A stretch of DNA of 34,065 nucleotides from Dokdonia sp. (GCA_023299935.1 JALZVV010000163.1:1-34065), one strand, 5' to 3'. Numbered from the stretch's first letter, positions 3,872-28,400 are shown. The notes: a model not told the origin generated them from the sequence alone. Translations and numbers: made by a program.

Positions 3872-4963
3872 ATGAAAACTCAAATACAACTTTTCTTTTT
3901 CCTCTTACTAGCGGTACCTGGATTAGTTTTTGCAAACGACAACGGACTTAAAGGAAAATACACTAAGGAGAAAAAAATAAAAAAAGAATACCCTGTTAGT
4001 CCTGATGCGCGTGTAAAAATTGACAATAGTTATGGCAATGTAAATGTAGTCTCGTGGGATCAAAATACTGTGGTTATCGAAGTTACGATTAAGACCAATG
4101 GAAATGATGAAGATAAAGTTCAAGATAAGTTGGATGAGATTAATGTAAACTTCACCGGAAATTCATCATTTGTAAGTGCAGAAACAACATTTAACAAAAA
4201 TGGCAGCAGGTCTTGGTGGAGCAGCTGGAGAAGTAGTAATGTAAATATGGAAATCAATTATGAGATAAAAGTTCCTGTTTCTAATGACATAGATTTAAGT
4301 AATGATTATGGAAGTATTGCCTTAAACAAAATAGAAGGAAATGCAAAAATAAGTTGTGATTACGGCAAACTGATTATTGGAGAGTTGCTAGGAGATAACA
4401 ATCTGCTCAATTTTGATTATACAAAAAACTCGAACATAAGTTATATGAAAGGCGGACGTATTGTTGCAGATTATTCGGGTTTTACCTTGGAAAATGGTGG
4501 AGATATTGAACTCAATGCAGATTATTCTAAGTCAGAATTTGGAGATATTGCCAATCTCAATTATAACTGTGATTACGGCTCTTTATACACAGGTACATCT
4601 CAAGATGTTACTGGAGAAGGAGATTATCTCTCTACCAAGCTAGGTGTTGTAAATGGAACGATTAACATAAACGCAGATTATGGTTCCATACGTATTAACG
4701 AATTGAGCAGCACTGCCAGAGATGTCAATATACAAAGTGATTATACCGGGATAAAAATCGGATATGATGTTCAATATCATTTTAATTTTAATATCTCTTT
4801 AGAATATGCTGGACTCAATGGCGTTGAGGATTTTGAAATGATAAAAAAGCGCATTCAATCATCAGATAAATATTATGAAGGCTATTATGGTAATAGTTCT
4901 TCACCCAACACAATCAATATAAACTCAGAATACGGCGGAGTAACTTTTACTCGCCTTAATTAA
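3872..4963 (+). CDS. DUF4097-like / putative adhesin with beta-solenoid DY[GST] repeats, exported
   Basis: Signal peptide; YPVSPDARVKIDNSYGNVNVVSWDQN start typical of DUF4097-type adhesins; recurrent DYGSI/DYGKL/DYSGF/DYSKS/DYGSL/DYTGI/EYGGV. Confidence 0.75.
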   Translation: MKTQIQLFFFLLLAVPGLVFANDNGLKGKYTKEKKIKKEYPVSPDARVKIDNSYGNVNVVSWDQNTVVIEVTIKTNGNDEDKVQDKLDEINVNFTGNSSFVSAETTFNKNGSRSWWSSWRSSNVNMEINYEIKVPVSNDIDLSNDYGSIALNKIEGNAKISCDYGKLIIGELLGDNNLLNFDYTKNSNISYMKGGRIVADYSGFTLENGGDIELNADYSKSEFGDIANLNYNCDYGSLYTGTSQDVTGEGDYLSTKLGVVNGTININADYGSIRINELSSTARDVNIQSDYTGIKIGYDVQYHFNFNISLEYAGLNGVEDFEMIKKRIQSSDKYYEGYYGNSSSPNTININSEYGGVTFTRLN

Positions 4964-4986
4964 TCATCAATTAAAATTCAATCATT

Positions 4987-5712
4987 ATGAAAAAAGTAAT
5001 CGCAATTAGTTTATTCCTATTTACCATTGTTCCTATGCAAGCCCAGTGGTGGGGAAAAGGAATTAAAGGAAGTGGTAGTATGACAACAATTACAAGGTCT
5101 GTAGGAGACTATGACCAAGTAAAAGTAGCAGGCTTCTTTGATGTGCGCCTTGTTGCTGGTAGCGAAGGCTCCCTAACATTAGAAGGAGAAGATAATTTAT
5201 TAGAATATATAGTAACCGAAGTTAAAGATGGAGCCTTAAAAATTAAGGTGCAAAAAGGAAAAACCTTACGACCTAGTACTAACAAAATGATACGTATCAC
5301 TGTCCCTTTTAAAAATATAAGCGGTGTTTCCCTATCTGGTTCTGGTGATGTGTGGAATGAAGATATCATTGCATCAGAGTCATTTATTACATCATTAGCA
5401 GGTTCTGGAGACGTAAAACTTGAAATAGAAGCAAGAAATATTGAAGCAAACGTTTCGGGTTCTGGAGATTTAACCCTTACGGGAAAAGCAGAAAACATAG
5501 AGGCTAGCTTAGCTGGATCTGGAGATATAAATGCCAGAAATATTAATGCAGAAAACGCATATGTACGTGTGGCAGGTTCCGGAGATATATCTGTGCATTC
5601 TACAAGGAGTCTTAAAGCCCGCGTAAGTGGTTCTGGAGATATCGATTCTTACGGCAATCCAGACAAACAGGATACTAAGGTTGCTGGATCTGGAGATATA
5701 TCTGTTCACTAG
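4987..5712 (+). CDS. Head GIN domain-containing (DUF2807) secreted beta-helix protein
   Basis: Signal peptide; SVGDYDQVKVAGFFDVRLVAGSEGSLTLEGEDNLLEYI; repeated GSGD turns. Confidence 0.88.
   Translation: MKKVIAISLFLFTIVPMQAQWWGKGIKGSGSMTTITRSVGDYDQVKVAGFFDVRLVAGSEGSLTLEGEDNLLEYIVTEVKDGALKIKVQKGKTLRPSTNKMIRITVPFKNISGVSLSGSGDVWNEDIIASESFITSLAGSGDVKLEIEARNIEANVSGSGDLTLTGKAENIEASLAGSGDINARNINAENAYVRVAGSGDISVHSTRSLKARVSGSGDIDSYGNPDKQDTKVAGSGDISVH
5332..5704 (+). repeat. In-gene repeats encoding (S/A)GSGD turns (ggntctggngat-type units)
   Basis: Seven GSGD(V/L/I) motifs at roughly 18-21-aa spacing in the translated ORF: SGSGDV, AGSGDV, SGSGDL, AGSGDI, AGSGDI, SGSGDI, AGSGDI. Confidence 0.85.
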
Positions 5713-5724
5713 ACTCAGGTACAT

Positions 5725-5763
5725 AGCATAAAAAAGCCTCGCTGTGCGAGGCTTTTTTATGCT
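5725..5763. terminator. Bidirectional intrinsic terminator
   Basis: agcataaaaaagcctcgc-tgt-gcgaggcttttttatgct: perfect stem of about 18 bp with 3-nt loop, between convergent genes. Confidence 0.92.
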
Positions 5764-5778
5764 ATCATTTAATATATC

Positions 5779-6555
5779 TTATTGTAAGGTATATGTAAAA
5801 GTTATATCCTCTAAGATTTCAACACTTCCCATTCCATCATCAGAAACAATTTCTCCAAAGAATCCATCGGGTACAGTAAATACAATTTGCGTGCTGGAAA
5901 CTACTCCATTTATTCCATCTATAGTAATTGTATTACCATTTAAAACATAATTGGAGTTTGTAATCTCTTGTTCTATTATACACTCCACCATCTGTGTTAC
6001 AACATCACCATCAATAACAACAGACAAGTTCAAAAATGAATTAGAAGTTGCTGTCAATTCTGTCTCGGAATCAAAAAATAAAGTTTCATTCTGATAACAT
6101 CCTGTTTCTATTATTAGATCATTAGAAGCATCTCCGTCACCATCTAAATCTACGGCAGTTTCTACTTCAAAGGCTGTGAGTATATATGTTTGCCCTACTA
6201 ATGAACCTGGTGCATCTCCATCATCATCTCCACCATCACCAGGATCAACCATACAATCATCTCCTAAATCATCTAATAAGGCTTGGAAAAGACCTGTATC
6301 ATCACCGCACACAACAATAGCATTTATAATCGTAGCTTGTAAGGCATCACATAATGCCATTTCTTGACCCGCAGGAGCATTAATAAGTGCTGCTTGAGCA
6401 GAGGCAATATTAAAGGCAATATCTTCACAAAATTCTTCTGGATCACTCCCGTCTGGAGTAGAGAAAAACTCTCCTTCTAATTGCTCATCTTCACAAGAAT
6501 TCAAAGCCATTAAGCCAACAAAAACTAATATAATATAGTAGGTTATTTTTTTCAT
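5779..6555 (-). CDS. Acidic (Asp/Gly-rich) hypothetical lipoprotein
   Basis: MKKITYYIILVFVGLMALNSCEDEQ lipobox; DPGDGGDDDGDAPG and DLDGDGDASND stretches. Confidence 0.75.
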   Translation of the reverse strand: MKKITYYIILVFVGLMALNSCEDEQLEGEFFSTPDGSDPEEFCEDIAFNIASAQAALINAPAGQEMALCDALQATIINAIVVCGDDTGLFQALLDDLGDDCMVDPGDGGDDDGDAPGSLVGQTYILTAFEVETAVDLDGDGDASNDLIIETGCYQNETLFFDSETELTATSNSFLNLSVVIDGDVVTQMVECIIEQEITNSNYVLNGNTITIDGINGVVSSTQIVFTVPDGFFGEIVSDDGMGSVEILEDITFTYTLQ

Positions 6556-12047: not shown

Positions 12048-12070
12048 TATACTTTTGTCGCTTTCGCGAA

Positions 12071-12106
12071 AACAATAAACCCTGCCAAATGGCAGGGTTT
12101 ATTGTT
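12071..12106. terminator. Bidirectional terminator hairpin
   Basis: aacaataaaccctgcca-aa-tggcagggtttattgtt, perfect palindrome between convergent lpdA and the VWA gene. Confidence 0.9.
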
Positions 12107-17552: not shown

Positions 17553-18734
17553 TTAGGAAAGCTTATTATTTCTGTGATACAGGTAAATTTTGCCTGCTAT
17601 TTTCTTGAGATAGGTGGCTGCATTGCGATAACTGTCATCTTTATTCTTAGCGCAATCAAGTACTGCCCACGTCTTTTTAATGCCCATTGCTAAGGCATCA
17701 TTGCTATCAAGTTGATTTATACCGCATACCGCATATACCGGAATTTTATAGTGCTTCCCAAGACTGGAAATACCTTTTACAAGCTTCCCACTTTGTGTTT
17801 GATGATCTATGCTCCCTTCTCCCGTAATAATGGCATCAAATTCTCCCTTGATAAGTGTCTCTTCCACTCCAGAAATTGTAGTTAGAAATGTCACGCCAGC
17901 AACAAACTTTGCATTAAAAAAGACACTTAAACCATAGCCGGAACCACCTGCAGCGCCTGTTCCAGGAACATACTTATTATTTACGCCTAATTCCCTTTGC
18001 ACGATATTTGCTAAATTATCCAAGCCAGCATCAAGGCTCTCAATAGCATCCAAGCTTGCTCCTTTTTGCTTACCGTATACCTGTGCTGCACCTTTAACGC
18101 CTGTCAATACATTATCAACATCATTGATAGCATAAATTTCTGGTAAAACAAGATCTTGCGGTTTTTGTATTTGACAAATCAAATCTAAATTTTTCCCAAT
18201 AGGTGATAATTCATGTCCTTTCTCATCTAAAAATTTAAATCCTAATGCTGCGGCCATTCCTATTCCGCCATCGTTAGTGGCACTGCCGCCTAAGCCTATA
18301 TAAATCTTTTGTGCACCTCGGTCTATGGCATCTTTAATTTGAAGCCCTGTTCCATAGGTAGAGGTGTGTAAAGGGTTACGCTCACTTTGAGACAATAGTT
18401 CTAATCCTGACGCTTTAGCAAGTTCTATATATGCGATCTGAGAAGCTTTCGCGAAATCGAGCTTGTGAGATTCACGACCCTCGGGAGAGCGCAGCGATAA
18501 AGCATAATCAGCTACAATGTCTCTTCCTAAAGGATCCTTAGTATGGGTTTCAATACAATCTACAGCCACAAAGCTCTGTATAAAAGATAGAAAGCCTTCT
18601 CCTCCGTCTGAAGCAATAATAGACTGTGACCTAAAATCGGAATCCATCTCCTGAAAGCCTGAACAAAGCGCCTCAATCACTTCTTGTGCGGTAAGAGAGT
18701 CCTTGAAACTATCGGGTATTATTAAAAAATGCAC
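17553..18734 (-). CDS. Glycerate kinase (GarK/GlxK family)
   Basis: IIPDSFKDSLTAQEV, SDGGEGFL, GLGGSATNDGGIGMAAALG, GTGAAGGSGYGL, GEGSIDHQTQSGK. GTG start abutting the upstream gene's stop. Confidence 0.95.
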   Translation of the reverse strand: MHFLIIPDSFKDSLTAQEVIEALCSGFQEMDSDFRSQSIIASDGGEGFLSFIQSFVAVDCIETHTKDPLGRDIVADYALSLRSPEGRESHKLDFAKASQIAYIELAKASGLELLSQSERNPLHTSTYGTGLQIKDAIDRGAQKIYIGLGGSATNDGGIGMAAALGFKFLDEKGHELSPIGKNLDLICQIQKPQDLVLPEIYAINDVDNVLTGVKGAAQVYGKQKGASLDAIESLDAGLDNLANIVQRELGVNNKYVPGTGAAGGSGYGLSVFFNAKFVAGVTFLTTISGVEETLIKGEFDAIITGEGSIDHQTQSGKLVKGISSLGKHYKIPVYAVCGINQLDSNDALAMGIKKTWAVLDCAKNKDDSYRNAATYLKKIAGKIYLYHRNNKLS

Positions 18735-20381
18735 CTATCCGTAAATTTGTGGAGCGAGGGCTCCTATGAGAAGAATTACAACAAAAAAGCCAAGAAGAAT
18801 ATATACCTCCTTGCGCTGCCAGTCCTTTTTAGAAATGGCGAAAGAAACAGAACTGTCGCTCTTTACAGGTACTTGAGCCGTGAGCATACTTACCACATAA
18901 GCCACAACTAAGGCAATACCAACACCTGTTACATTAAGCCAAATCCAGAAAATATCAAAACCAAGATCAATATTAAAAAGCCCTTGTATGGTCTTAGAAA
19001 ACATTAAATTGATAAGAACCGCTGTAATAATACCAGCATTCATTCCAATATGATTGACTTTTTTTGAGAAAATAGCCAATAAGAAAGTAACTAAAACAGG
19101 TCCGTAAAAAACAGAACCAATAGCATTGATAATTTCAATCACTGCACTTTTACTCCCTCCAAAAAGAAAAGAACAAGCAATACACACTACTCCCCAAAAT
19201 ACTACTGAAGCTTTTGACAAAAACATATATTTTTTTGTAGAAAGCTTTTCTTTGCCTCGATTAAAAAAATCTTCTACTGATACAGCAGACAATGAATTTA
19301 CAGTAGAACTTAAAGAAGACATGGCAGCCGAAAGAATGGCAACCATCAAAATTCCAATAAATCCATGCGGGAGATACTTGAGAATAAAAACAGGAATCAT
19401 TAAATCTGCCTTATATCCAGTTGCTGCATAATCTGCAGGAAAATGTTTCTGAGTAGCAACACCAATCTCTGCCATAAAATCTGGTGCAACAGTAAGTAAT
19501 GCTCCTATAAATAAGCCCATTGTACAGTAGACTAGAACCACCGGGAATCGCAATAAACCATTAGCGAGCAATAATTGACGTATTGTCTTTTCATTTTTTG
19601 CAGAAAGCATGCGTTGCGCTTGAGATTGATCACAACCATAATAGGAGACATACAAGAAAAAACCTCCAAAAATCATAGGTAACAATCCATATTCTTCTCC
19701 ACTCCCCAAGCCCATGTTGAAATCAATAACTTGCAGTCGTTCAGGATCAAAACCTGCTGCTAGACCTCCATTATCTTGTAATAATTGCCAGCCATAATAC
19801 GTGCACACAATAAGGCCTATAAAAAGTAGAACCATTTGCACGGCATCTCCCCATACTACAGCTTTCATTCCGCCTTGCCAGGAATACACAATAGTAATTG
19901 CACTTATGATAAGAACCGTATATACATAGTCTATATCTAAAACAGCCTGTAAAATAATAGCTATTGTGTAGACCATAACTCCCGTTCCTAAAGCTTTACT
20001 TATCTGGAAAACCACACTTAAAATAAGTCGTGTAGATGATGAAAAACGCTTTTCTATAAACTCGTATATACTCACTACTCCTGACCTAAATAAAGGCGGA
20101 ATAATAAATAACATAATAAATGCCATAGCTATAGGTACGGCAAACTCAAAAGTGAGCCATTTTAAACCACCGTTTAACTTAAGCCCTACAAATGCAGGAG
20201 CAGATATAAAACTAATTGCAGAAAGCTGTGTCGCCATGGTAGAAAGACTTAATGGGAACCAGCCCATACTGCGCCCTCCTAAAAAATAATCTTTCGCATT
20301 TTTATTATCCTTAAAGAAAAATCCCATCCCTAAAAAAAAGAAGATGTAAACTGCGATTATTGTAAAATCTAACCAATTCAT
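18735..20381 (-). CDS. Sodium:solute symporter (SSS family)
   Basis: Multi-TM; DYFLGGRSMGWFPLSLSTMATQLSAISFISAPA and GCDQSQAQRMLSAK are SSS signatures. Confidence 0.94.
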   Translation of the reverse strand: MNWLDFTIIAVYIFFFLGMGFFFKDNKNAKDYFLGGRSMGWFPLSLSTMATQLSAISFISAPAFVGLKLNGGLKWLTFEFAVPIAMAFIMLFIIPPLFRSGVVSIYEFIEKRFSSSTRLILSVVFQISKALGTGVMVYTIAIILQAVLDIDYVYTVLIISAITIVYSWQGGMKAVVWGDAVQMVLLFIGLIVCTYYGWQLLQDNGGLAAGFDPERLQVIDFNMGLGSGEEYGLLPMIFGGFFLYVSYYGCDQSQAQRMLSAKNEKTIRQLLLANGLLRFPVVLVYCTMGLFIGALLTVAPDFMAEIGVATQKHFPADYAATGYKADLMIPVFILKYLPHGFIGILMVAILSAAMSSLSSTVNSLSAVSVEDFFNRGKEKLSTKKYMFLSKASVVFWGVVCIACSFLFGGSKSAVIEIINAIGSVFYGPVLVTFLLAIFSKKVNHIGMNAGIITAVLINLMFSKTIQGLFNIDLGFDIFWIWLNVTGVGIALVVAYVVSMLTAQVPVKSDSSVSFAISKKDWQRKEVYILLGFFVVILLIGALAPQIYG

Positions 20382-20387
20382 CTGTTT

Positions 20388-21701
20388 CTATTTGTTTAGT
20401 AATAAATCTAATGTTAATGCTGCACTCCAAGAAAAATTCTTTCCGCCGTAGCCTTGAGTTAGTTTTTTATCCTGCTCTTTACGTGGATCAAAGTACTCAT
20501 AAAAGCCATATTTTTTCATCAGATATAGTGTGTCAGCTTTTATTTGCTCCGTTAATTCCAGAGCAGCATATTTTCTAAATCCTCTATAAAGTAACCAATT
20601 GAGATTAATCCATATGGGACCGCGCCAGTAGCGTTTGGGATCAAAAGAGTTACTACTCGGGTCAAAAGAAGCACATAACAAGAACTCTTTTTGTTTTCCA
20701 GAAAAAGGTCCTTTTGCAAAAGCCTCAATCATTTCAAAAGCACGGTTTTTATCGGGAATACCTGCAAATAGGGCTGTAAAAGAAGAAGAAGAAAGTACCG
20801 GCAAAGCCCTATCATTACGCAAATCATAATAAACATATCCCTTTAGTTCAGGATCATATAATTTTTGATTGTAGCTCTTTTTACTTTGAGCATTCCATTG
20901 TTCTAATTGCGACACTTTTTCTAGCTTCCCTAAGATTCTTCCCAAATCAATAAGAGCCGCATTAGAAGCTATGAGCATAGCATTAAAAAGGGGGTCTTGT
21001 ACTAAAAAAGGGGACTTTTCAGCAATAAGGGCATCATCATATGCGTAAGATTTAAATAACTCTATCAAATGAATATAATGTTGGTATTCTCGATTACTCG
21101 GTCTATGACTTGCAGCGATATGCAAATTATCTTTACGGTCTAAGTCATACTCTGGAGAGTCCATGGTATCCCAAATACTATCCCATACCGGCGTATTATC
21201 TGTTCCAGCTTCCCAGTTATGGCATATATATACTAAGCCTTCCCCTTTAGGATCTCTATGGGTATATAAGTACTCATGAAAGTGATATGCCGCGTCATAG
21301 ACTTCGTTAAGAAATGGTAACATTCTAGAGTCCGCTTTCGCGAAAGCATACATCTCCCCAAGCACCCACCCTAATACTGGTGGCTGAGTTATGCCCGAGG
21401 TTGGAATCTCTGGGGCAAAAGGACTTAAATGTGAGGCTTGAACCTCAGGGCCAGGAAAATAACTATCTGATGGATTATGAAAAATAATATGCGGGATAAA
21501 ACCATTTTTCCATTGCCCCTTGAGTAATGATTGTATCTCTTTAAAAGCTCTTTCTAGATCCAGATGCATCCATCCTAAAGCAATAAAACCAGAATCCCAA
21601 TGCCATTGAAAAGGATACAATCCCTCACAGGGTACCGTAAAACCTTGTCTCCAGTTATTTTCTAAAATATTCTTAGCCTCTATTGATAATGATTGCTGCA
21701 T
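20388..21701 (-). CDS. GH63/MGH1-like glycoside hydrolase (trehalase/mannosyl- or glucosyl-glycerate hydrolase-like)
   Basis: (alpha/alpha)6 signatures: FQWHWDSGFIALGW, CHNWEAGTDNTPVWDS, YWRGPIWINLNWLLYRG, YGFYEYFDPRKEQ...YGGKNFSWSAALTLDLL. Confidence 0.85.
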   Translation of the reverse strand: MQQSLSIEAKNILENNWRQGFTVPCEGLYPFQWHWDSGFIALGWMHLDLERAFKEIQSLLKGQWKNGFIPHIIFHNPSDSYFPGPEVQASHLSPFAPEIPTSGITQPPVLGWVLGEMYAFAKADSRMLPFLNEVYDAAYHFHEYLYTHRDPKGEGLVYICHNWEAGTDNTPVWDSIWDTMDSPEYDLDRKDNLHIAASHRPSNREYQHYIHLIELFKSYAYDDALIAEKSPFLVQDPLFNAMLIASNAALIDLGRILGKLEKVSQLEQWNAQSKKSYNQKLYDPELKGYVYYDLRNDRALPVLSSSSFTALFAGIPDKNRAFEMIEAFAKGPFSGKQKEFLLCASFDPSSNSFDPKRYWRGPIWINLNWLLYRGFRKYAALELTEQIKADTLYLMKKYGFYEYFDPRKEQDKKLTQGYGGKNFSWSAALTLDLLLNK

Positions 21702-21763
21702 ATACCGCCTGTTATTGACTAAATATACTACTTAATCCTTATTTTTACATTAAAATAAACACT

Positions 21764-22576
21764 GTGTCTTTTACCAAAACCACCGAGCAAGATTCTGCTT
21801 ACGACCATCTAGAAAAGATGTCTACGACAGAGCTACTAAGTAGTATGAATGCCGAAGACCAGACCGTTCCTAAGGCTGTAGCCAAAGTCATCCCACAAAT
21901 AGAACACGTTATTGACCAAGTCGTAAGTTGTCTAGAATCCGGAGGACGCCTATTTTATATGGGTGCAGGAACAAGCGGTCGTTTGGGTGTGGTAGATGCC
22001 AGTGAGTGTCCTCCTACTTTTGGAGTGTCACATAATACAGTAATTGGCTTAATCGCGGGTGGTGATACTGCCATACGTAAAGCCGTTGAGTTTGCCGAAG
22101 ACAGTACTACTCAAGGATGGAAAGACCTAGAAGCAGCAAACATAAGCACTAAAGATTTTGTGATTGGGATTGCAGCATCTGGCACTACTCCTTATGTTAT
22201 AGGTGCTTTAGAAAAGTGTAATCAAGAAAGGATAGGAACAGGATGTATCACGTGTAATGCAGGAAGTCCGCTAGCGATAACTGCACAATTCCCAATTGAA
22301 GCTGTTGTAGGTCCAGAATTTGTTACTGGCAGCAGTCGTATGAAAGCAGGTACGGCGCAAAAACTTATTCTTAATATGATATCTACTGCCACGATGATCA
22401 AACTAGGTCATGTAAAAGGGAATAAGATGGTAGATATGCAACTGAGTAACCATAAGCTTGTAGGTAGAGGTGCGAAAATGATTATGGATGCCTTAGACAT
22501 ATCGCAGGAAACAGCAAATGCACTCTTAACTAAGTACGGTAGTGTGCGTAAAGCCATTGATAATTATGAGCACTAA
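21764..22576 (+). CDS. murQ: N-acetylmuramic acid 6-phosphate etherase
   Basis: SIS domain GRLFYMGAGTSGRLGVVDASECPPTFG, IAASGTTPYVIGAL, PEFVTGSSRMKAGTAQKLILNMISTATMI. GTG start. Confidence 0.95.
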   Translation: MSFTKTTEQDSAYDHLEKMSTTELLSSMNAEDQTVPKAVAKVIPQIEHVIDQVVSCLESGGRLFYMGAGTSGRLGVVDASECPPTFGVSHNTVIGLIAGGDTAIRKAVEFAEDSTTQGWKDLEAANISTKDFVIGIAASGTTPYVIGALEKCNQERIGTGCITCNAGSPLAITAQFPIEAVVGPEFVTGSSRMKAGTAQKLILNMISTATMIKLGHVKGNKMVDMQLSNHKLVGRGAKMIMDALDISQETANALLTKYGSVRKAIDNYEH

Positions 22577-22787: not shown

Positions 22788-22949
22788 AAAATAGCCGTTG
22801 GGTACTAGCCTCTAAGAGTTAGCTAAGGTTTAAATGTTTGAAAATAGATTTGATGATGTGTTTATAATTTCTAGACAGTTTCCAAGCTAGAAACACTCGA
22901 TTACAGTAAACTAGGCTTAGTTTGGTAGTGATTTTTTTTTAGTCTTGTC

Positions 22950-23177
22950 TCGTGGCTCCTGATTTCTAGTTTCTAGTTTCTAGTTCAAAAATCAAAAATC
23001 TACAATGGTTAATCAACAAACGGTTTTCTCGATACATTTCTCGTTACGTTCCAAATACTAGATCACCTCAAAATAGACTTCAACTATTGGGTGTTGGGAT
23101 TTTAGTCAATTTGTCGTGGCTCGTGGCTCCTGATTTCTAGTTTCTAGTTCAAAAATCAAAAATCTACAATCGTTAAT
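22950..23177. repeat. Pair of roughly 57-65 bp direct repeats (22950-23014 and 23121-23177) containing TTTCTAG heptamers
   Basis: tcgtggctcctgatttctag(tttctag)n ttcaaaaatcaaaaatctacaat[g/c]gttaatc; three TTTCTAG units in the first copy, two in the second. Confidence 0.9.
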
Positions 23178-23194
23178 CTCCAATCAAAAATCGT

Positions 23195-25400: not shown

Positions 25401-28400
25401 TTGTATCTAAACACCCACACGCAATACAGCTTACGATATGGGACCTGGAGTGTTCCGGAGATTATTGCTTTCGCGAAAGCGAACCACATCAAAAAAATCG
25501 CCCTTACAGATATCAATAATACATCTGCCTGTCTGTCTTTTGTCCGAAAAGCCCAAGAGGCCAATATCCAAGCTGTTTTAGGCATCGATTTTAGAAATGG
25601 GATACAGCAAGAATTTGTGGCGATTGCTCAAAACAACCAAGGCTTTTTAGAAATTAACCACTTTCTATCAAAGCACCTACACGATAAAACACCTATCCCT
25701 GAGAAAGCCCCCACTTTTGCCCATAGCTATGTAATTTATCCTTTTCATAAAGTAGCACAATGGCCATACAGACTGGATAATCACGAGTATATAGGTGTTC
25801 GGATAAGAGACCTAAGCAAACTTTCATTTTTAAAATTGAGCAAGGATCAGCACTCAAAAATTGTCTTGCTAGAACCCATGACTTTTGGTTCTAAAAAGGA
25901 ATATAATATCCATAGATTATTACGTGCCATAGCAGAAAATACGCTTCTTAGTAAACTCCCTAAAAATGCACAAGCTAGTGCTCAGGACATCTTTAAAACC
26001 CCTCAGGAGTTAGCACAAGCCCTCTTGCATTTTCCCGAGATTAAAGCCACTACCCAAGCCTTGTTGGACAGTTGTCATATCCATTTTAATTTTGCTAAAA
26101 CCAAACCCCACCAAAACCTCAAACACCTCCTAGATTCTATCGCTTGTGATTATTCAAAACTGCGCAAACTATGTAAGCAAGGGCTTCCTGAGCGATATCC
26201 TAACGGTATCACCTATGCTATAAAAAGGCGGGTGATAAAAGAACTACAATTAATACAGCAGCAGCATTTTGTAGCTTTTTTTCTCATCAACTGGAAGATT
26301 ATAGAATATGCCCGAAGCAAGGATTATTATTATGTAGGTCGTGGCAGCGGTGCAAATAGTATTGTGGCGTATCTGTTGCGCATTACAGATGTAGACCCCA
26401 TTGAGCTAGATCTCTATTTTGAGCGTTTTATGAATCTCTACCGTTCCACTCCCCCAGATTTTGATATTGATTTCTCCACTTGGGACCGCGAGGATGTGAC
26501 GCGCTTTATTTTTGATGAATTTGGTAAGCAATCCCAGGTCGCATTACTCGGTGCTTATGTTACTTTTAAGCATAGTGGTGCCGTACGAGAATTGGGGAAG
26601 GTATTCGGGCTACCTAAACACGAGATAGACAAGCTTAGTGATGGGAAGTATAATCCCAATGAGCTGGATGATATCTCAAAGCTTGTCCTCACCTATGCGA
26701 GCTATTTTAATGGCAGACCTAACTATCTGAGTATTCACGCCGCAGGCATACTCATTGCAGAGCAACCTATTCACTATTTTTCGGCTACTAGTTTCCCGCC
26801 TAAAGGCTTCCCTACCGTACAGTTTGATATGCATATCGCAGAAGATGTGGGTCTTTATAAATTTGATATACTAGGACAGCGCGGACTAGGAAAAATAAAA
26901 GATGCTGTAGGTATTATTAAGGAGAATCATCCCGGTGTGCAACTGCCCGATATCCACCATACGCGACCTTTTTTTAAAGACCCAAAGATTAATGCAATGA
27001 TTGCGCGGGCTGAGTGTATTGGTTGTTTTTATGTGGAGTCGCCCGCAATGCGTATGCTACTGAAAAAACTAGCCGTAAACGATTATCTCACACTCGTGGC
27101 TGCTAGTTCTATCATACGCCCTGGCGTGGCAAAAAGCGGAATGATGCGCGAGTATATCCTCCGTCATAAAAACCCAGAAAGAGCACAGCAAGTAGGACAT
27201 CCCGTACTATTGGATATTATGCCAGATACATACGGCGTGATGGTATACCAGGAAGACGTCATTAAAGTGGCTCATCATTATGCTCATCTTGATCTAGGCG
27301 AGGCAGATGTACTACGCCGTGGGATGAGTGGGAAATACCGCTCTCGTGCTGAGTTCCTTCAGGTTAAAGAAAAGTTTAAACAAAACTGTTTTGCTCGCGG
27401 CGAAAATCCTAAAATTGTAAACGAAGTATGGCGACAGATAGAAAGTTTTGCAGGTTACGCTTTTGCTAAAGGTCATTCTGCCTCCTATGCCGTAGAGTCC
27501 TACCAAAGTCTCTATCTTAAATGCTATTATCCTCTTGAGTATATGGTAGCTACCATAAACAATGGTGGCGGTTTTTATCGTGTAGAAACCTATCTGCACG
27601 AAGCTCGATTGCAGGGCGCTAGTATTCATCCGCCCTGCGTAAACCGAAGCCAGATACAAACAATTATACAAGGAAAAGACATTATTCTAGGTTTCCAGCA
27701 CTTACACGGCCTAGAAAAAAGTACGATGATTGCACTACTCAATGCCCGTAATCATATGGGGGTATTTCACTCCCTAGACAAGTTTATAGAACGTGTGTCT
27801 ATAAGCATTGAGCAGTTGGATATTCTTATACGCATTGACGCCTTTAGAAGTACCCAAAAAGACAAACGCACGCTATTATGGGAAGCCTATTATAAAGAAC
27901 ACGCCATTCCTGATAATCTTGCTCAGCAACAACTCTTTAGCCTTGCGATACAGGATTTTACCTTGCCTACATTTGACATCACTGCTTTAGAATGTGCTTT
28001 TGACCAATTGGAACTTTTAGGTTTCCCACTCTGCGACTCTTTTATTCTTCTAGAAAAACCACCGAGTACTGCTCTACTGGCTAGTGAACTGCGGCAGTAT
28101 CTAAATAAGATCGTACGTATATATGGTTATCTCATAACAGCCAAAAGAACTCGAACGACAAGAGGCAATCGCATGTTTTTTGGCACCTTTCTAGACCAAG
28201 CTGGCCGGTGGATAGACACTGTACATTTCCCTCCCGTAGCCCAGCGTTATCCATTTAAAAGCAAAGGTATTTACTGTATTACAGGCAAGGTGGTGAGTGA
28301 GTTTGATTTCCTTACCATAGAAGTGAGCAAACTAGAACGTATGGGGTATGTGCCTGACCCTAGGTTTGATCCTACGTATAATAGGAAAGTGAGGAAAGAA

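Follow-up and report, generated by a model that had tools for sequence, protein, structure and literature searches.

A predicted glycosylglycerate utilisation operon in Dokdonia sp. and a palindrome abundant across its genus

Three adjacent genes of the marine flavobacterium Dokdonia sp. very probably form a catabolic operon that scavenges an alpha-glycosylglycerate (2-O-alpha-mannosyl- and/or 2-O-alpha-glucosyl-D-glycerate). They lie in a 34,065-nucleotide stretch of DNA (the window), which is contig C163 of a 2.62 Mb assembly estimated to be 85% complete, and encode a hydrolase (GH), a sodium:solute symporter (SSS) and a glycerate kinase (GK). In the pathway that we propose from sequence, SSS would import the alpha-glycosylglycerate together with sodium, the cytoplasmic GH63 hydrolase would split it into a hexose and D-glycerate, and GK would phosphorylate the glycerate, which could then enter lower glycolysis. 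The hexose would enter general sugar metabolism via kinases and isomerases encoded elsewhere in the genome; outside the operon, the assembly has two isomerase-type genes and a single ROK kinase gene. This predicted use of glycosylglycerates is well supported by the contact residues of the hydrolase, the conservation of the gene triplet, the co-occurrence of GK and GH, the additional genes found in relatives and a parallel arrangement in Deinococcus. The features of the locus are:

20388..21701, minus strand: GH63 MGH1-type hydrolase (GH), 437 codons, predicted from family and residues to act on mannosylglycerate/glucosylglycerate
18735..20381, minus strand: SSS-family sodium:solute symporter (SSS; TIGR00813), 548 codons, probable glycosylglycerate importer
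17553..18734, minus strand: GK1-type glycerate kinase (GK; PF02595/TIGR00045), 393 codons, GTG start
21702..21763, no strand assigned: divergent intergenic region of 62 bp from the start of GH to murQ, presumed to hold the operon promoter
21764..22576, plus strand: murQ (N-acetylmuramic acid 6-phosphate etherase), divergent neighbour outside the conserved unit

All three genes are arranged head to tail, with a gap of 6 bp (AAACAG) between GH and SSS and of 0 bp between SSS and GK, where the TAG stop codon of SSS is directly followed by the GTG of GK. Open reading frames re-derived from the window reproduced exactly the positions and both gaps given in a preliminary description of this DNA. Separately, an intergenic part of the window (22800-23190) contains two near copies of repeated phrases such as ctagtttctagttcaaaaatcaaaaatctaca.

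GH matches the complete Pfam MGH1-like_GH profile (PF22422; 304 bits, residues 29-426, profile positions 1-356 of 356), and its top PDB match, over the full length and with ~42% identity, is the Thermus mannosylglycerate hydrolase (MgH; 307.6 bits), followed by the mycobacterial glucosylglycerate hydrolase MhGgH (202 bits). The 19 substrate contacts described for MhGgH (PMC6608630) were mapped onto GH, Thermus MgH and homologues. GH is identical to Thermus MgH at 19/19 of these positions and to MhGgH at 18/19, the sole exception being Phe in place of Gln434. The catalytic acid Asp168 and base Glu402 correspond to Asp182 and Glu419 of MhGgH, and the glycerate contacts Tyr29, Trp33, Tyr81, Arg200 and Tyr358 to its Tyr36, Trp40, Tyr88, Arg216 and Tyr375. 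This pattern is identical across all 27 close homologues examined, and in two distant homologues used as a control (L064 and L068) the glycerate-contact positions are mostly lost or unaligned. Phylogenetic inference placed GH in a Bacteroidota clade with 98/93 support, next to the Thermus MgH clade, with MhGgH joining more loosely, and the deep branching order is unsure because several branches are long. The score of GH on the NCBIfam glucosylglycerate hydrolase equivalog (NF047898), 316 bits, falls below the cut-off of 550 and counts against the operon explanation; the Rubrobacter (362 bits), Meiothermus (403 bits) and Deinococcus homologues miss the same cut-off.

GH is extremely unlikely to be just another trehalase or GH63 disaccharidase with GK beside it by accident. 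Homologues are publicly annotated as 'trehalase family glycosidase' and GH has a weak match to the Pfam Trehalase profile (33.6 bits); however, YgjK, trehalase-like and GH63 glucosidase PDB chains match only in part and with less than 30 bits, far below MgH. GK is moreover conserved with GH, and a non-homologous glycerate kinase takes its place in Deinococcus. We therefore rejected a trehalase or generic GH63 disaccharidase on the residue pattern, the score ranking and the linkage to GK. Two checks named in the preliminary description, clustering with trehalases and the glycerate-binding residues, turned out in favour of its proposal, as the best full-length match of GH is Thermus MgH and all of these residues are intact.

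Which hexose is released is less readily predicted. MhGgH cleaves both mannosylglycerate and glucosylglycerate with an approximately tenfold preference for the latter, and MgH from Thermus or Selaginella acts about equally on the two (PMC6608630). Since all of these enzymes act on both substrates, the sequence predicts that GH hydrolyses glycosylglycerates but does not specify the sugar. Glucosylglycerate from marine picocyanobacteria might be the main substrate instead of red-algal mannosylglycerate (digeneaside), a possibility that we take seriously while leaning against it. Prochlorococcus NATL2A has glucosylglycerate as a major compatible solute (PMC11631117). In Meiothermus, moreover, a homologue whose contact residues are the same adjoins a sugar phosphorylase similar in type to sucrose phosphorylase and possibly acting on glucosylglycerate. 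However, GH shares Phe at position 434 with Thermus MgH, where MhGgH has Gln. In three relatives (L022, L023 and L087), a mannose-6-phosphate isomerase gene adjoins GK in the same orientation, and for these loci this speaks for mannose as the sugar. Neither point is decisive, because Thermus MgH handles both substrates about equally (PMC6608630). In L022, mannose-6-phosphate isomerases are encoded at 4301-5269 and 5480-6454; both L022 and L023 carry two convergent paralogues. The preliminary description had proposed that the operon imports, splits and uses a glycosylglycerate, which the residues, the triplet and the co-occurrence data support, whereas digeneaside, its specific candidate, is a substrate that we can only infer.

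The neighbourhood survey, which the preliminary description had named as a check, found GH, SSS and GK in this order in 26/26 distinct relatives with readable flanks. These comprise six initial loci, five further ones from Winogradskyella and Saprospiraceae, 14 found among 397 genomes drawn from the order, and Emticicia; L032 is not among them, as its contig end is too near. GK lies ~1.8 kb past SSS in one relative (L089), and another (L084) matches SSS and GK only in part. The recurrence of three genes in unchanged order in all of these relatives indicates that their arrangement is not due to chance. Close homologues of GH occur in ~4% of the genomes of the order (draw of 397). Among 18 genomes of the genus, GH and GK are both encoded by five and neither by 13; in one of these 13, a genome of low quality, another GH63 is matched weakly. 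PF02595 is found only in the five genomes that encode GH, and GK is the only PF02595 protein found in the window's own assembly; together these are strong evidence that GK serves the GH pathway, and they bear out the functional tie between the two genes that had been suggested before.

In most relatives the triplet is flanked by a TonB receptor and by a LacI regulator in divergent orientation. Neither gene is present at the window locus or in its nearest relative (L021/L027), both of which also lack the isomerase and instead have murQ divergent; we counted the absence of the three genes from the window locus against the operon explanation. The transported solute, the choice between mannose and glucose, outer-membrane passage and regulation are features of the pathway that we infer. 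A functional link to murQ (a shared lactate/glycerate theme) was considered and rejected, because murQ is adjacent solely in the window and this one close relative.

The operon could instead recycle an osmolyte made by the cell itself, which is the role of MhGgH in mycobacteria (PMC6608630), although we regard this as very unlikely. The symporter is a constant part of the operon, and the TonB receptor and LacI regulator of most relatives indicate an external substrate. A search of the window's own 85%-complete genome confined to mannosyl-3-phosphoglycerate synthase (PF09488) gave no match, and recycling via this synthase was set aside. Scavenging of an external glycosylglycerate is the reading that we retain.

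SSS is assigned to its family by PF00474 (SSF, 139 bits) and by TIGR00813 (214.9 bits, above the cut-off of 184). Its nearest PDB chains are SGLT, SiaT, NIS and SMCT, which transport glucose, sialic acid, iodide and monocarboxylates. Given these varied solutes, the substrate of SSS is unreadable from its sequence, and deducing it from the PDB relatives was abandoned as uninformative; as part of the triplet, SSS is a probable glycosylglycerate importer. GK matches PF02595 (Gly_kinase, 359.5 bits) and, over its full length, TIGR00045 (326.5 bits, above the cut-off of 168.45). It is also divergent and carries a 15-residue insertion, both of which we counted against the operon explanation. The insertion forms part of one of two repeat features within the operon:

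18445..18503, minus strand: 59-bp element in GK, made up of 45 bp inserted in frame (15 aa) and an adjoining copy of the palindrome with one mismatch
21334-21347, no strand assigned: exact 14-bp palindrome GCTTTCGCGAAAGC within GH, where it reads AFAKA

The 15 inserted codons are absent from every aligned relative, and L021 has the plain palindrome alone at this site. Matches of GK gene DNA elsewhere in the genome trace to the 59-bp element (18445-18503). The repeat, which has the palindrome at its end, also occurs in L002-L006 and at many sites in G010, G006 and G004; in G010 the 59-bp form gave 88 partial matches. Its scattered occurrence in genomes of the genus, most of all in G010, suggests a small mobile or duplicating element.

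The window contains palindrome sites at 2641-2654, 12060-12073, 18445-18458 (the one-mismatch copy in GK), 21334-21347 and 25467-25480. The copy in GH and its 3' flank are identical in L021, wobble bases included. GCTTTCGCGAAAGC occurs 385 times in the window's own assembly (control 0), and each of the 18 genomes of the genus (G000-G017) has 369-905 exact copies. In the rest of the family it is abundant only in two sampled genera, g26 (578-664 copies) and g237 (408 copies), with 0-19 copies in the remaining sampled genomes; the genomes outside G000-G017 recorded as having the palindrome are G042, G390, G700 and G544. Within 400 kb of one complete genome we counted 107 exact copies against 0.0009 expected and only eight single-mismatch forms, with the extended consensus TTACGCTTTCGCGAAAGCGTAA. 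In the same 400 kb, 57% of copies are intergenic compared with ~11% of bases (approximate values from simple ORF calling), and their spacing is more even than random (p 0.0002). Literature searches did not find the 14-mer GCTTTCGCGAAAGC, and a search for TTTCGCGAAA as a palindrome gave nothing related. We take the palindrome to resemble cyanobacterial HIP1 in kind. It is an even call whether TTACGCTTTCGCGAAAGCGTAA is an apparently undescribed, strongly maintained HIP1-like site for a chromosome-organising, repair or DNA-modifying protein, which in GK served as the entry point of the 45-bp, 15-residue in-frame element.

Red algae and marine picocyanobacteria commonly contain mannosylglycerate and glucosylglycerate as osmolytes. 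With GH-SSS-GK as a defined marker, the turnover of both compounds by Bacteroidota could be tracked in metagenomes, where such hydrolases are now often labelled trehalases. SSS in addition offers a concrete candidate for a carrier that couples glycosylglycerate uptake to sodium, of which our searches yielded no example.

Among enzymes of solved structure, GH is closest to MgH of Thermus thermophilus (GH63; PDB 2z07, 4wva-c), with which it shares ~42% identity over the whole length and all 19 contacts, including Phe at the position of MhGgH Gln434; unlike this enzyme, it belongs to a separate Bacteroidota branch (98/93 support). MhGgH of Mycolicibacterium hassiacum (GH63; PDB 5ohc) is of the same family and agrees at 18/19 contacts; however, GH shares only ~32% identity with it and has Phe for Gln434, and MhGgH itself prefers glucosylglycerate about tenfold (PMC6608630).

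Related loci in Deinococcus, Rhizobium, Roseomonas and Meiothermus (L117-L120) likewise combine an importer with a GH of the MgH type. In contrast to the window, the importer is of the ABC type instead of SSS, and the glycerate kinase, where present, is of the unrelated MOFRL/DUF4147 type. On a plasmid of Deinococcus peraridilitoris (L119, 4986-8407), an ABC importer and GH are followed by a MOFRL/DUF4147 glycerate 2-kinase, unrelated to PF02595, and a ROK kinase; the MgH-type hydrolase is publicly annotated as trehalase family. This locus has a pathway logic equivalent to that of the window, built from non-homologous parts and with a sugar kinase (ROK) in addition. In Meiothermus, GH adjoins the sucrose-phosphorylase-type enzyme mentioned above. 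GH is thus repeatedly paired with an importer and, through unrelated proteins, with a glycerate kinase, as the pathway predicts.

A literature search on mannosylglycerate use by flavobacteria found little. Digeneaside utilisation/degradation genes of Zobellia galactanivorans were described by Barbeyron et al. 2016, as cited in PMC8072126, where Maribacter homologues are also named, and digeneaside is a listed PUL substrate of North Sea Flavobacteriia (PMC6298971). As far as these descriptions go, the likeness of the Zobellia and North Sea genes to the window triplet lies in a proposed function in marine flavobacteria; compared with the Zobellia system as cited there, the window locus lacks a TonB receptor and LacI regulator. 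The idea of a digeneaside/glycosylglycerate pathway is therefore not new, having already been predicted in related bacteria, and what is added here is the present lineage, the measured co-occurrence of GK and GH, and the finding of a non-homologous kinase in Deinococcus.
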